Assembly: GCF_027257955.1 (NCBI RefSeq)
Contig: NZ_JANZNQ010000015.1
Coordinates: 1 to 64,000, forward strand
Length of the DNA stretch: 64,000 nt
Source of the DNA: Zhongshania aquatica
GTDB taxonomy: Bacteria; Pseudomonadota; Gammaproteobacteria; Pseudomonadales; Spongiibacteraceae
Direction of reading: 5' to 3'
A model generated the notes under the pieces. That model saw only the letters and a list, made by a program, of their open reading frames with translations, ran no database searches and had not been told where the DNA came from. Made by a program: the position numbers and the translations under genes. Shown here piece by piece: positions 28,692 to 60,007 of this stretch; position 1 is the stretch's first letter, and every line of letters begins with the position of its first letter.

Positions 28692-30131
28692 ATGAATAAC
28701 TCTCTCTTCAAGAAAACGTTAATGGCGTCTTTGATAGCTACTGCAAGTGCTGCGCACGCAGGTCCTCTGGCTGTCATTATCAGCCCTATTGCAAGCGCGG
28801 CTGGCGGTACACCGCTAGATGTACTTGTTGTACAGCTAGTTCAAGTTGATAATCAATTAGGTGCTGCGTCTGGTGGTGGTTTACCGGGCTTGGACGCTTT
28901 GCCAGGTTTAGATTCACTCCCAGGTCTTGACGCACTTCCAATCCCAGGCGCTGGCGGTGGAGCTGGTGGTCTACCTGGTTTAGACGCTTTAACTGGTCTT
29001 TTGGGTGGTGGTTTACCGGGCTTGGATTCACTCCCAGGTCTTGACGCACTTCCAATCCCAGGCGCTGGCGGCGGAGCTGGTGGTCTACCTGGTTTAGACG
29101 CTTTAACTGGTCTTTTGGGTGGTGGTTTACCGGGCTTGGATTCACTTCCCGGCCTTGATGCACTTCCAATTCCTGGTGCTGGCGGTGGAGCAGGTGGTCT
29201 ACCTGGTTTAGATGCTCTACCATTTGATTTTAGCACTGCTGCGGCACCATTGTTCCAACTGACTTTTACCGTGGATAACGCTCTGAATGACGTTGCAGGT
29301 AACAACGGCATCACTGATTCAGTAACCGATATCGTTGATTCTCTTCCTAGCGGTGATATTGACGTTATCTCAGGTGGCTTCTTCTTTGTCGGTCAGCGGA
29401 CTCAGGTTACCGTGGATCATTTAACATCAAACTTGATGGCATTAGGTGGTGGAGGAATCCCAGGTTTTGACGCATTACCTGGGTTGGATCTTTTGGGCAT
29501 GCTTGGTCTACCAATTCCAGGCTTCGGTGGTGGTTCAGGTGGCCTTCCAGGCTTAGATTCACTTCCCGGTTTAGATGCACTTCCCATTCCTGGCTTTGAT
29601 TCTCTTCCCGGTTTAGATGCACTTCCAATTTCTGGTGCTGGTGGCCTACCTGGTTTAGACGCTTTGACCGGTCTTCTGGGTGGTATTCCGGGTTTGGATG
29701 CGCTTCCAATTCCTGGTCTTGGCGGCGGTAGCGGCGGTGGCCTTCCTGGTTTAGATGCACTTCCGATTCCTGGTTTAGATGCACTACCATTTGACTTGAG
29801 CACAGCCGCGGAGCCATTGTTCCAGCTGACTTTCACCGTCGATACGGCACTTAATGATGTTGCAGGTTTTAGCGGTGTTACTGATAAAGTAACTAATATC
29901 GTTGATGCTCTCCCTAGTGCTGATCCCGCTATTATCCAGGCTACCGCTTTCTTAGTTGGTGATCAGGTTCAGTTGACAGTGGATCATTTAAGCGCAAACT
30001 TGATGGCACTAGGTGGTGGTGCAGGTGGTCTTCCAGGTCTAGATTCGCTTCCTATCCCAGGCTTGGATGCACTTCCCGGTTTAGATGCGCTCCCAATCCC
30101 TGGTTTGGATGCGTTACCACTACCTATCTAA
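28692..30131 (+). CDS. Secreted PGLDALPIPG-repeat protein with a duplicated domain, unknown function
   Basis: The 479-residue protein has a signal peptide cut after AHA (residue 23). The mature chain alternates low-complexity repeats (GLPGLDALPIPG units with Gly-rich linkers, at about 40-175, 255-363 and 441-479) with two copies of a domain of about 75 residues. The first copy (about 177-252, beginning FDFSTAAAPLFQLTFTVD) and second (about 365-440, beginning FDLSTAAEPLFQLTFTVD) are clearly homologous and both end in VDHL--NLMALGGG. I recognise no family. No membrane anchor is seen, so it is likely periplasmic or extracellular. The repeats are exact enough at DNA level (114-bp units) to recombine. 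It is followed by a terminator and stands alone. Confidence 0.8.
   Translation: MNNSLFKKTLMASLIATASAAHAGPLAVIISPIASAAGGTPLDVLVVQLVQVDNQLGAASGGGLPGLDALPGLDSLPGLDALPIPGAGGGAGGLPGLDALTGLLGGGLPGLDSLPGLDALPIPGAGGGAGGLPGLDALTGLLGGGLPGLDSLPGLDALPIPGAGGGAGGLPGLDALPFDFSTAAAPLFQLTFTVDNALNDVAGNNGITDSVTDIVDSLPSGDIDVISGGFFFVGQRTQVTVDHLTSNLMALGGGGIPGFDALPGLDLLGMLGLPIPGFGGGSGGLPGLDSLPGLDALPIPGFDSLPGLDALPISGAGGLPGLDALTGLLGGIPGLDALPIPGLGGGSGGGLPGLDALPIPGLDALPFDLSTAAEPLFQLTFTVDTALNDVAGFSGVTDKVTNIVDALPSADPAIIQATAFLVGDQVQLTVDHLSANLMALGGGAGGLPGLDSLPIPGLDALPGLDALPIPGLDALPLPI
28875..29234 (+). repeat. Tandem 114-bp coding repeats in the secreted protein gene
   Basis: A 38-residue unit (GGLPGLDSLPGLDALPIPG followed by AGGGAGGLPGLDALTGLLG) recurs. 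The GGTGGTTTAC starts lie at about 28875, 29007 and 29121, spaced 132 and 114 bases; the first copy carries an extra 18-bp hexapeptide. Identity between copies is very high at the DNA level, suggesting recent duplication and possible copy-number variation. Confidence 0.8.
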
Positions 30132-57100: not shown

Positions 57101-58201
57101 ATGCAACAGAATAAAAAACTGATTTCAGACGGCTACGATCTAATTGCCAATAAGACAATGGAGTCAAAAGCAATGCGCGATCTTGATGAGCTGATTGCTC
57201 AGGTATCGACATTTGACACCTTGGTTCTTATCCGCGGCGAATCTGGCAGTGGCAAAGAAGTTGTAGCGCGACGCATACATGAAGCGTCGCCGCGTGCCGG
57301 AAAAGCCTTTATTCCTGTTAACTGTGGCGCGATCCCGGCTGATCTTTTAGAAAGCGAATTGTTTGGTCACGAGAAAGGCGCATTTACCGGCGCGATAGCA
57401 ACACGTCAAGGTCGTTTTGAACTCGCCGAAGGCGGTACGCTGTTTCTTGATGAAATCGGTGATATGAGCCTTCCAATGCAAGTTAAATTACTTCGCGTAT
57501 TGCAAGAGCGTTGCTTTGAACGTGTCGGCAGCAACGAGACCAAGCGTTGCAATGTGCGTATCTTGGCGGCAACTCACCGCAATCTTGAGGACATGGTAGA
57601 AGACGGTAGCTTTAGACAGGATTTGTTTTATCGCCTAGATGTTTTTCCAATCGAGGTGCCGGCGTTGCGCGAGCATACCGAAGATGTAGCTACCTTGATG
57701 GCCTTGTTCATGGAAAAGCTTGAAGCCAAAGGAATGCGTACACCACGTTTTTCCGCCAGTGCGATGCGTGCGCTAAAGGTTTACGGCTGGCCCGGCAATA
57801 TACGTGAACTTGAGAATTTGATGGAGCGTCTAGCCATTACTCATAGTGGGAAATTGGTAAGTGTTAATGACTTGCCAAAGCAGTTTCGTATTATGGGCAT
57901 GGTGGAGCTTGATGTAGAGGCTGAATATGAGCGCGACGACCAAGATGCCTTAATGAATACCTTACTTGCCCGCCCTGTAGATGACGACAACGATATTGCC
58001 TTCTCGGTAGCATCTTCAAATGGCAGGCCGCCGCTACCAGTGGAAGGGATTGATTTGAAGTCCTATTTACAAGACATCGAGCAGTGGTTTATCTCTGAAG
58101 CACTGCGTAAAGAAAACGGTGTAATAACCCGTGCGGCGCAATTACTTGGTCTGCAGCGTACAACGCTGGCAGAGAAGATGAAAAAAATGGGTGAAGTTTA
58201 G
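57101..58201 (+). CDS. fleQ: FleQ/FlrA-like sigma54 activator lacking the N-terminal domain
   Basis: The 366-residue protein aligns with FleQ from its AAA+ domain onward: Walker A GESGSGKE at about 45-52, GAFTGA (sigma54-contact loop) at about 96, Walker B LFLDEIGDM, and a C-terminal Fis-type helix-turn-helix (about 335-360, RAAQLLGLQRTTLAEKMKKM). FleQ proteins are about 490 residues. The N-terminal REC-like domain of about 130 residues is missing, and only about 220 non-coding bases precede the start. At the place of the LFRS c-di-GMP contact motif of Pseudomonas FleQ the sequence is LIAN. It would be the class I master activator. It has its own terminator (58279-58304). Confidence 0.88.
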   Translation: MQQNKKLISDGYDLIANKTMESKAMRDLDELIAQVSTFDTLVLIRGESGSGKEVVARRIHEASPRAGKAFIPVNCGAIPADLLESELFGHEKGAFTGAIATRQGRFELAEGGTLFLDEIGDMSLPMQVKLLRVLQERCFERVGSNETKRCNVRILAATHRNLEDMVEDGSFRQDLFYRLDVFPIEVPALREHTEDVATLMALFMEKLEAKGMRTPRFSASAMRALKVYGWPGNIRELENLMERLAITHSGKLVSVNDLPKQFRIMGMVELDVEAEYERDDQDALMNTLLARPVDDDNDIAFSVASSNGRPPLPVEGIDLKSYLQDIEQWFISEALRKENGVITRAAQLLGLQRTTLAEKMKKMGEV

Positions 58202-58278
58202 ACATAGCAATTGCAGATCTTTTTAGTGACCTAACATTCAAATATAGCTTTTTACGTTATTTTTTATTCCACTGAATA

Positions 58279-58304
58279 AAGCGCTTCGATGGCGCTTTTT
58301 TTTC
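58279..58304 (+). terminator. Intrinsic terminator of the fleQ-like gene
   Basis: The stem AAAGCGC-TTCGATG-GCGCTTT is followed by a run of eight T, 77 bases past the stop. It separates fleQ from the small-gene/fleR operon. Confidence 0.9.
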
Positions 58305-58416
58305 GCCTCGTATTTTATTTTTATATTTAAAATTAGCGCCAAAAAATACTCGCCAAAAAACTGTCGGTTTTATTAAATATAATCATAAGTCATTGTTTTA
58401 AATGGAGATAAATTAG

Positions 58417-58433
58417 TGGCATGGCGATTGCTT
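58417..58433 (+). promoter_or_regulatory. Sigma54 promoter overlapping the annotated start of the small gene
   Basis: TGGCATGGCGATTGCTT matches TGGCAC-N5-TTGC with GG (58418-58419) and GC (58430-58431) exactly 12 apart. Transcription would begin near 58443, downstream of ATG 58421. The first usable in-frame start of the small gene is then ATG 58469. It is the natural target of the FleQ-like protein. Confidence 0.8.
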
Positions 58434-58468
58434 TATCGACTGTAGGTAACTTATACGAGTCTACGGCG

Positions 58469-58645
58469 ATGACCAAAGATAAGAACAACAAAAATAGCTT
58501 CAGCTTCGCAAATAGCTTTGCAGAGCAACATTGCTTAGATCTTTGTCGTCAGGAAATAGTATACGCAGCCAAACGTTTGGCGACGGAGCTACTCATTGCC
58601 AAAAGCGTCGCATCGTTAAATCCTGCAACAGAGGGAGGTCGTTAA
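58469..58645 (+). CDS. Small unknown protein in the place of the FleS/FlrB kinase gene
   Basis: From ATG 58469 the product has 58 residues; the longest frame (ATG 58421) gives 74 but would start inside the sigma54 promoter. A polar N-terminal tail (about 1-15, Lys/Asn-rich) precedes a predicted amphipathic helix of about 30 residues ([20 protein letters not shown] then ATELLIAKS) with two Cys. No signal peptide, no kinase or PAS motif, no family recognised. It ends one base before the fleR-like ATG and contains that gene's GGGAGG ribosome site, so both are coupled. Function unknown; a partner or regulator of the FleR-like protein is a reasonable guess. Confidence 0.6.
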
Positions 58646-58646
58646 T

Positions 58647-59645
58647 ATGGCTGATTTAATTGTGGCAGATAAAGCATCTAAGTCAGTCAAGGCTTTGGCC
58701 GCCCGTGTGGCGATGACTGATGCAACGGTACTGATTAGTGGTCAGAGTGGCGCTGGTAAAGAAGTCTATGCGCGTTTTATTCACAGTCATTCACGCCGCA
58801 GTGACGGGCCATTTATTGCATTAAACTGCGCGGCAATTCCAGAGAACATGCTTGAGGCTATGCTGTTTGGCTATGAGAAAGGCGCGTTTACCGGCGCCAT
58901 CAACAGTCACGCCGGTAAATTTGAACAGGCCCAAGGCGGTACGCTTTTACTAGACGAAATTTCTGAGATGGATCTCGGCCTGCAGGCAAAACTGCTGCGG
59001 GTATTGCAGGAGCGGGAATTAGAGCGCTTAGGAAGTCGTAAAACCCTCAAGCTAGATGTGCGCGTGATTGCAACGAGTAACAAGGATGTTCGTGCGGCGG
59101 TCCGTGAGGGCGAGTTTCGCGAAGACTTATTTTACCGACTGAATGTTTTCCCCCTGCTGATACCTAGCTTGGCAGAGCGTCGTGGCGATATTTTGCCCTT
59201 GGCGCAATATTTCTTAAGTCGCGATAGCAGCGTGCGCGATCCTGCGGCAATGTTAAGTGATGGTGCTGCTAATGCACTTATTGGTTACGCATGGCCGGGG
59301 AATGTTCGCGAGTTGGACAATGTGATTCAGCGGGCCATGATTCTTCGTCAACAAGACGAGATAACTGAGCGGGATATTCAGTTTGAAACCGGTCTTAGTT
59401 TCGTCAGCGATTTTGAAGAGCGTTTCAATACCACGTCTGTGACAGACGCTGGTGATGACGAGCAATCCAATGATAGCTGCGGTGTACTAGATGGCTTTAT
59501 GCGAGACCAGGAGCGTCGTGTTATCACCGATGCGCTTAAAGTTGGTCGCTCTAAAAAAGAAGCAGCAGAAATTTTAGGAATAAGCCCGCGTACTCTACGT
59601 TACAAACTCGCGCGCCTGCGTGAGCAAAGCTACATCACCGGTTAA
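58647..59645 (+). CDS. fleR: FleR/FlrC-like sigma54 activator lacking the receiver domain
   Basis: The 332-residue protein corresponds to FleR/FlrC without its N-terminal receiver domain (usual length about 470). AAA+ features: Walker A GQSGAGKE at about 32-39, GAFTGA at about 84, [20 protein letters not shown], and a C-terminal Fis-type helix-turn-helix (about 298-325, [20 protein letters not shown]). With no phosphoacceptor Asp, control by a FleS-type kinase is impossible, and no such kinase is adjacent. It probably drives the class III sigma54 promoters (flgB, fliD). fliE follows after 11 bases. Confidence 0.9.
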
Positions 59646-59656
59646 GGAGACTCGAG

Positions 59657-60007
59657 ATGTCTGACAGTATGAATGTAAACCAGATTCTCACCCAGATTCG
59701 CTCTCTCCGGGACCAGACGAGTATTGCGCGGCCGGAAGCAAACCCAAACAGTCTTGGTGCTATTAACGTTAACCCGACGGAAAAGGTCGATTTTGGGTCT
59801 ATGCTTAAGCAATCTATTGATGCCGTTAATGAAACCCAGAAGAGTGCCGGTGCTATGTCAGCAGCATTTGAGCGTGGCGATGAAAACGTCAGCTTAACTC
59901 AGGTGATGGTGAATTTGCAGAAGTCAGAAGTCAGCTTTAAAGCGATGGTAGAAGTGCGTAATAAGTTTGTAGATGCCTATCAAGAAGTGATGAGGATGTC
60001 GATGTAA
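59657..60007 (+). CDS. fliE: Flagellar hook-basal body protein FliE
   Basis: The 116-residue MS-ring/rod adaptor has the C-terminal family block VSLTQVMVNLQKSEVSFKAM followed by VEVRNKFVDAYQEVMRMSM. AAGGAGA site before ATG 59657. First of the fliEFGHI series. Confidence 0.95.
   Translation: MSDSMNVNQILTQIRSLRDQTSIARPEANPNSLGAINVNPTEKVDFGSMLKQSIDAVNETQKSAGAMSAAFERGDENVSLTQVMVNLQKSEVSFKAMVEVRNKFVDAYQEVMRMSM

Follow-up and report, generated by a model that had tools for sequence, protein, structure and literature searches.

The DNA analysed here (the window) is a 64,000-nucleotide (nt) stretch of contig NZ_JANZNQ010000015.1 from Zhongshania aquatica, and carries genes for two sigma54-dependent flagellar activators, a FleQ/FlrA-like protein (referred to as FleQ1) and a FleR/FlrC-like protein (FleR). 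Both start at their AAA+ domain, and a gene for a small protein of 58 amino acids (aa) occupies the place of the kinase gene fleS between them. From these and the following results, the genus of this bacterium probably runs the FleQ to FleR sigma54 cascade without a phosphorelay. An earlier note on the same DNA had proposed a phosphorylation-independent cascade, and for the FleR step this is well supported by sequence comparison: all 18 genomes of the genus had short FleR frames and yielded no FleS-grade kinase, and receiver decay tracked kinase loss in other families. At this level of evidence, we regard as established the anatomy of the locus and its conservation, the lack of a detectable FleS, the constraint on the small gene, and the conservation of a promoter-like element.

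The earlier note had located the FleQ-like, small, and FleR-like frames correctly, and its reading of the two activators as beginning at the AAA+ domain agreed with the Pfam results: Sigma54_activat, AAA lid, and HTH_8 were found in both (45.6 bits for HTH_8 of FleR), and a receiver domain in neither. FleQ contained the Walker A and GAFTGA motifs in all 18 genomes of the genus, as did FleR of the window and of 17/17 relatives. The best PDB match of FleQ1 was P. aeruginosa FleQ (8p53; E 2.3e-109), with the alignment beginning at chain residue 151, and that of FleR was the AAA+ domain of V. cholerae FlrC (4qhs; E 2.2e-95). The open frame of fleQ1 (371 aa) was only 5 aa longer than the protein, and the distance of 219 nt to fliT left no room for a receiver. 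Non-coding DNA had been noted before both starts, but fleR (open frame, 341 aa) was preceded by the coding small open reading frame (ORF).

The short FleR was found throughout the genus (316-374 aa in 18/18 genomes), and started at the AAA+ boundary in 13/18 members aligned. In the order-level sample (57 relatives searched with FleR as the query; orthologue cut-off, E <= 1e-75), the best-match frames of the 27 other relatives with FleR were 421-555 aa, none of them short; G006 and G048 (genomes and loci are cited by G and L numbers) each contained a second, weaker match with 45-46% identity, the frame of which was 373 aa in G048. In the class-wide sample (204 genomes; cut-off, E <= 1e-88), an orthologue was present in 91: the window's genome (short), G109 and G169, in which fleR ran into contig ends, and 88 evaluable others (two of them also among the 27), all with frames of at least 409 aa and therefore 0/88 short. 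A long frame in these counts means room for an N-terminal domain, and not always a receiver. Since the arrangement was common to 18 genomes, in which identity to FleR of the window went down to 66%, it is not due to chance; the ratio of nonsynonymous to synonymous polymorphism (pN/pS) of fleR in the genus was 0.035-0.19. A fleS gene together with a full-length fleR elsewhere in the window's genome, a check proposed in the earlier note, was searched for and not found, with a single FleR match at E <= 1e-75 over the whole genome. No other sigma54 activator examined in this genome was more than 49% identical to FleR, in a comparison that left out one strong activator of 11 (L006) and the weak PF00158 matches L012-L016. 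A receiver acting in trans was also considered and rejected: there was no special candidate in the genome, the highest identity to the receiver of FleR being 37% among 34 genome matches.

A FleS profile (A1) made from 15 FleS proteins gave FleS-grade matches of 216-577 bits in 22/57 relatives. No such match was obtained in 18/18 genus genomes, with the best 32 of 44-66 first-look candidates scored per genome; the highest scores (124-138 bits) were found in larger kinases, in agreement with the absence of FleS/FlrB noted earlier from the window. With the best 32 candidates per genome, the same search did not find FleS in three sister-genus genomes, G025, or G034, and found a divergent kinase of 159 bits adjoining fleR in G027. 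With 33 HisKA matches in the window's genome, a different kinase can always be invoked; FleR, however, has no receiver to be phosphorylated.

Receiver residues were compared in 68 FleRs outside the genus. The set with a FleS-like kinase comprised 12 of the 18 order-level loci fetched, 42 of 79 class-wide genomes, and four genomes with a divergent kinase, and the receiver was intact in 57/58 (12/12; 20/20 and then 21/22; 4/4). In ten genomes without FleS, from seven families, it was intact only in G029 (1/10), decayed in G018, G025, G034, G062, G099, G200, and G251, and missing in G120 and G235 (Fisher p 2e-9 for intact receiver versus presence of the kinase, not corrected for kinship). A perfect link between kinase and receiver (36/36) had been considered; since the first 20 class-wide genomes mostly had high FleS scores, 22 more with mostly the lowest scores were added, and the result of 21/22 led to its rejection. 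In the class-wide search (threshold, 1e-55; best 8 candidates scored per genome), 12/91 FleR-bearing genomes were without FleS. Besides the window's genome, these were G102, G188, and G224 with divergent kinases, six with none, and the two with fleR at a contig end. The fleR gene of G099 is near the start of its contig, and its lack of FleS relies on the genome-wide search alone.

In G111 (L315), Glu replaced the receiver Asp, and the adjacent FleS had Asp at the position of the phospho-accepting His, an apparent joint decay of kinase and receiver. The FleRs of G120 (L288:4013-5374, minus strand) and G235 (L292:3443-4771, plus strand) had an N-terminus corresponding to the PAS region of FleS, joined directly to AAA+; it scored 84-85 bits against positions 83-174 of the FleS profile. 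Neither FleS nor a FleR receiver was found in these two genomes, which have thus lost the kinase core and receiver together. Among the other kinases, retention of the phospho-accepting His was examined in the 15 sequences of A1 and in G124. FleS of G124 (L316) matched the profile at positions 24-75 and 171-406, not in the PAS region, and is apparently without PAS. G034 (L123:4322-7006), a 1.9-Mb genome of another family, combined a short FleQ, no FleS, and a strongly decayed FleR receiver, and the FleRs at two FleS-less sister-genus loci (L103:2997-4325 and L102:5606-6946) had one decayed receiver, with Glu at the phospho-acceptor, and one intact receiver.

The fliE gene followed fleR by 8-25 nt in 17/17 genus relatives. 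Among the fetched loci of relatives, this gap was 2-25 nt in 21/21 without FleS, versus 80-1094 nt in 10/18 with FleS (no fliE nearby in 8/18). A tight gap as a consequence of kinase loss nevertheless failed out of sample, because 8/20 class-wide FleS-bearing genomes had 9-36 nt, and the idea was rejected.

Table. Coordinates of the features discussed (positions in the window, unless a locus is given).
Feature	Position	Strand	Remarks
FleQ1 (short FleQ-like), 366 aa	57101-58201	+	AAA+ and HTH_8 as sole Pfam domains; FleQ/REC domain absent
FleQ-box-like site GCCAAAAAACTGTC	58352-58365	+	Putative; related copy at 58338-58351
Predicted sigma54 -24/-12 promoter TGGCATGGCGATTGCT	58417-58432	+	
Small protein gene, 58 aa, in place of fleS	58469-58645	+	Single predicted helix, residues 9-50
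FleR (short FleR-like), 332 aa	58647-59645	+	AAA+ with GAFTGA, HTH_8; no receiver
fliE	59657-60007	+	11 nt past fleR; followed by fliF, fliG, and fliH
FleQ2, 452 aa	G000, L158:7655-9013 (contig C10)		Receiver-like (beta-alpha)5 pattern in modelled N-domain

Upstream of fleQ1 were the filament genes, fliS, and fliT (Pfam assignments for FliS and FliT, naming by eye for the rest). This order of fliS/fliT, fleQ, and fleR, the place of a FleQ/FlrA-type gene, had exceptions in 3/18 genus members, in which fleQ was about 6-36 kb from fleR. The window also encodes a 479-aa protein of GLPGLDALP-type repeats (28692-30131), unrelated to the flagellar finding.

A small ORF of 51-64 aa was present before fleR in the window and 17/17 relatives (found by position, with start codons chosen by hand). 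Its overlap with the start of fleR was 8 or 4 nt in 16/18, and a gap of 1 nt was left in 2/18. Of the 58-74 aa given in the earlier note, the shorter form is most likely, since the start codon of the 74-aa form (58421) lies within the conserved sigma54-type element and the upstream frame has a stop in 5/6 relatives aligned. The gene stayed with fleR where fleQ was apart (about 6 kb in G008, 36 kb in G011, and 28 kb in G014), and also in G004, in which a gene for a ZIP-type transporter stands between fleQ and the small gene. Identity to the small protein of the window was 44-52% in six relatives and 16-29% in the other 11, and tblastn with the 74-aa form recovered the gene in 7/18; the 11 divergent members are therefore identified by their location, the overlap, the promoter, and a common core. 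AlphaFold predicted one helix over residues 9-50 with a mean predicted local distance difference test score (pLDDT) of 79.3 (block means of 97 and 98 over residues 21-40). At E 0.1, 17/18 of the small proteins had no Pfam family and the remaining one had a hit at chance level (E 0.056); the model had no match in a PDB fold search at E up to 10, which carries little weight for a single helix. Two origins were tried and rejected: a remnant of FleS, based on spacing shared by eye with the N-terminal coiled coil of FleS (hhalign probability, 0.17%), and a remnant of the FleR receiver (0.05% against full-length FleR including the receiver).

The overlap with fleR may also mean that the small ORF is a mere leader, the translation of which opens the ribosome site of fleR, with no regulatory activity of the protein itself. 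The overlapping or abutting position in all members is as expected for a leader, as are the low identity of the 11 divergent members with the poor recovery by tblastn, and the C-terminal GG of most of the small proteins, which falls in the Shine-Dalgarno-like GGAGG of fleR. On the other hand, pN/pS of the small gene was 0.22-0.61 in 26 pairs from four subgroups covering 14/18 members, with synonymous sites near saturation in most pairs and protein-guided alignments; one Glu was invariant in 18/18, and the helical core is away from the ribosome site. We consider a leader without protein function rather unlikely. Gating by the small protein is plausible and fits its constraint, the overlap, and the fixed linkage to fleR, which leaves this protein as the leading candidate to hold or tune FleR.

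A sigma54-type element matching 10-12 of the 12 consensus letters was found upstream of the small ORF in 18/18 genus members, at a distance of 47-55 nt in 17/18 and 72 nt in G004. Although 10 letters were reached in only 1/300 mononucleotide shuffles, the pattern with one mismatch was no more frequent in the window than expected by chance (45 observed versus 42.3 expected), so that the evidence for this promoter consists of position and conservation. A 14-bp box (GCCA-N6-TG.C or near), which in the window resembles the FleQ box GTCAaAAAAtTGAC proposed for P. putida (PMC6120874, in the text available), lay 65 nt above the -24 element in 15/18 and 63 nt in one member; in L085 and L095, the best-scoring site was elsewhere. 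In the sister genome G018, GTCAAAAAAATGTC was found at the same distance, directly before a full-length fleR, and no box-like site was found in the sister genome G029. The sigma54 element may be active as a promoter, and FleQ1 may bind the box. A terminator-like hairpin with a T run, seen by eye behind fleQ (about 58280-58305), would part fleQ from the operon of the small gene.

According to the mechanism that we propose, FleQ1 would bind the box 65 nt upstream of the sigma54 promoter and switch on one operon of the small protein, fleR, fliE, and fliF onward. Since there is no receiver to keep FleR inactive for lack of phosphate, its AAA+ ring may form once enough protein has been made, and would then open the rod/hook (class III) promoters; the central domain of FlrC is reported to form an ATPase-active heptamer (PMC12607845). 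The timing of a receiver-free FleR would thus be set by when it is made, and not by a signal from FleS on completion of the MS ring and export gate. The 58-aa helical protein may hold or tune FleR. A more far-reaching proposal is that this protein is a new type of sigma54-activator gate, which binds the receiver-less FleR, reports assembly, and replaced the phosphorelay within one genus, and that the FleS-FleR relay was repeatedly dismantled in Gammaproteobacteria by different routes: a bare AAA+ protein (this genus), decayed receivers (seven genomes), a His-less kinase with an Asp-less receiver (G111), and a PAS-AAA+ fusion (G120 and G235). We put this forward tentatively, as possible but doubtful.

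Two activators without N-terminal domains are also found in R. sphaeroides (PMC9542535), and FleQ1 and FleR might form a mixed ring like FleQ/FleT of this bacterium, in which FleR shifts the promoter choice of FleQ and thereby makes the switch from class II to class III. The fleT operon is described as dependent on FleQ and sigma54 and includes fliEFGHIJ, in the same order as here (PMC7277832). However, FleT is without a DNA-binding domain (PMC11999139), unlike FleR with its HTH_8, and the ISPRTLRYK helix of FleR was unbroken in 17/17 genus relatives. A mixed ring is somewhat improbable, with about the same standing as the leader.

FleQ frames were also short in the genus (361-427 aa in 18/18). 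The two sister-genus genomes that contain FleQ, and G034, likewise had short ones; that of G036 was short but at a contig edge. With the numbering of P. aeruginosa FleQ (PMC10723142), mapped via the PDB alignment with an offset deduced from Walker A, the residues of ATP hydrolysis (K180, E181, R185, R260, R300, and R363) were invariant in FleQ1 of 18/18. Among the contacts of cyclic di-GMP (c-di-GMP), R185 was kept in 18/18 and R334 in 5/18, and R144 and E330 were lost in 18/18; R144, E330, and R334 were kept in 8, 8, and 9, respectively, of the 10 order-level FleQs compared. The R144 column is outside the PDB alignment and comes from the multiple alignment. The N-domain of P. aeruginosa FleQ is itself described as phosphorylation-incompetent, and the stable FleQ-FleN complex as requiring the receiver domain (both PMC10723142, in the part available). 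The contrast with Pseudomonas and Vibrio drawn in the earlier note therefore stands for the lost receiver of FleR and is weaker for FleQ, in which loss of the N-domain removes FleN contact and dimerisation, and not phosphorylation. Blindness of FleQ1 to c-di-GMP and altered control by FleN are predictions from these residues. FlhF and FliA passed the cut-offs in the window's genome, with a MinD/ParA-like FlhG/FleN candidate between them; this gene (L165:12303-13166) was kept, although FleQ1 is without the receiver domain of the FleN complex.

A search for FleQ homologues with a REC domain was also proposed in the earlier note. The only match to PF06490 in the genome is elsewhere and not in FleQ1, and a 452-aa FleQ paralogue (FleQ2) was found outside the window; PF06490 was not detected in the N-domain of FleQ2 of G000. 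A second FleQ-like match was obtained in 18/18 genus genomes (taken as one paralogue by assumption), with a frame of at least 432 aa in 16/18. The four FleQ2 proteins used in the tree formed their own clade (support, 96/89), the deeper placement of which was not settled by the tree. FleQ2 of G009 (L164:2531-3541, 337 aa) was without the N-terminal domain, as probably was that of G004 (349-aa frame). Signal input may have moved to FleQ2, its receiver-like domain sensing for both activators. The presence of a second FleQ in all members and the (beta-alpha)5-like N-domain in the model from G000 are consistent with such a role; R144, E330, and R334 were lost in 4/4 FleQ2 proteins examined, no flagellar gene was found beside that of G000 among ORFs of at least 150 aa in 18.5 kb, and two members have only the short form. 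This explanation is improbable, and FleQ2 nevertheless weakens any claim of an organism without a receiver-type FleQ. That the genus is losing flagella, with both regulators as relics, could be suspected from domain loss in two regulators, and can be dismissed from the low pN/pS of fleR, the intact motifs, and the apparent presence of the genes normally expected for rod, hook, filament, and export (named by eye from ORFs).

Several points weigh against a cascade without a phosphorelay. The sister genome G029 was without FleS, yet its receiver was intact, so that either kinase loss is not always accompanied by decay or another kinase serves there. The absence of FleS in each genus genome refers to the best 32 of 44-66 first-look candidates. 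The FleQ box is individually weak, 55/500 shuffled stretches reaching 10/14, and the FleQ consensus is called unreliable in the source paper itself (PMC6120874, in the text available). Furthermore, the second FleQ-like protein could feed signals in.

The system resembles FleQ-FleSR of Pseudomonas and FlrA-FlrBC of Vibrio in gene order, predicted sigma54 dependence, the kinship of AAA+ and HTH domains, and an FlhF and FlhG/FleN-like partner, and differs from them by the lack of a detected FleS/FlrB, FleR receiver, and FleQ pseudo-receiver, the loss of R144 and E330, and the extra 58-aa protein. The activity of FlrBC and FleSR is reported to depend on MS-ring, rotor, and export-gate proteins (PMC7064773), and the same paper asks, using reprogrammed transcription, whether polar flagellates need an ordered program. 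As FleR has been kept genus-wide without the kinase and receiver, and FlhF and an FlhG/FleN-like protein are present as well (both in the window's genome), the genus offers a natural test of whether the kinase/receiver checkpoint in flagellum assembly is needed. The gradation between families, from an intact or decayed receiver to PAS fusion and bare AAA+, also shows how a phosphorelay can be taken apart with its output protein kept. No receiver-less FleR or FleS-PAS-FleR fusion was found in titles and abstract openings of the open-access literature searched, with subscription literature mostly outside this search.

Caulobacter FlbD/FliX is a case in which a partner protein, and not a kinase, controls a flagellar sigma54 activator; unlike FleR of the genus, FlbD keeps its receiver domain (both PMC3930126, in the part available). 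The small proteins differ from FliX in matching no Pfam family above the cut-off. Pfam presumably holds a FliX model. HrpR/HrpS with HrpV of P. syringae, compared by description, are likewise a pair of activators without regulatory domains, one of which is acted on by a separate protein (PMC9542535), but control type III secretion, and FleQ1 and FleR presumably act one after the other. A likeness in both activators, also by description, is that to the Fla1 system of R. sphaeroides, in which neither FleQ nor FleT has an N-terminal regulatory domain (PMC9542535) and the second activator belongs to a sigma54-dependent operon with fliE onward (PMC7277832); the DNA-binding domain of FleR sets the genus apart from FleT (PMC11999139), and a small protein is not mentioned in the available parts of these accounts. 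Short forms that are common and already characterised would have spoken against the earlier note; a short FleR was uncommon in the genomes sampled, and FleQ/FleT is a precedent for flagellar activators without N-terminal regulatory domains. The arrangement, a variant of the FleQ-FleSR cascade that extends through the genus, is rare among the sampled genomes and has a partial precedent in R. sphaeroides. It would become a new category only if the small protein turns out to gate FleR directly.

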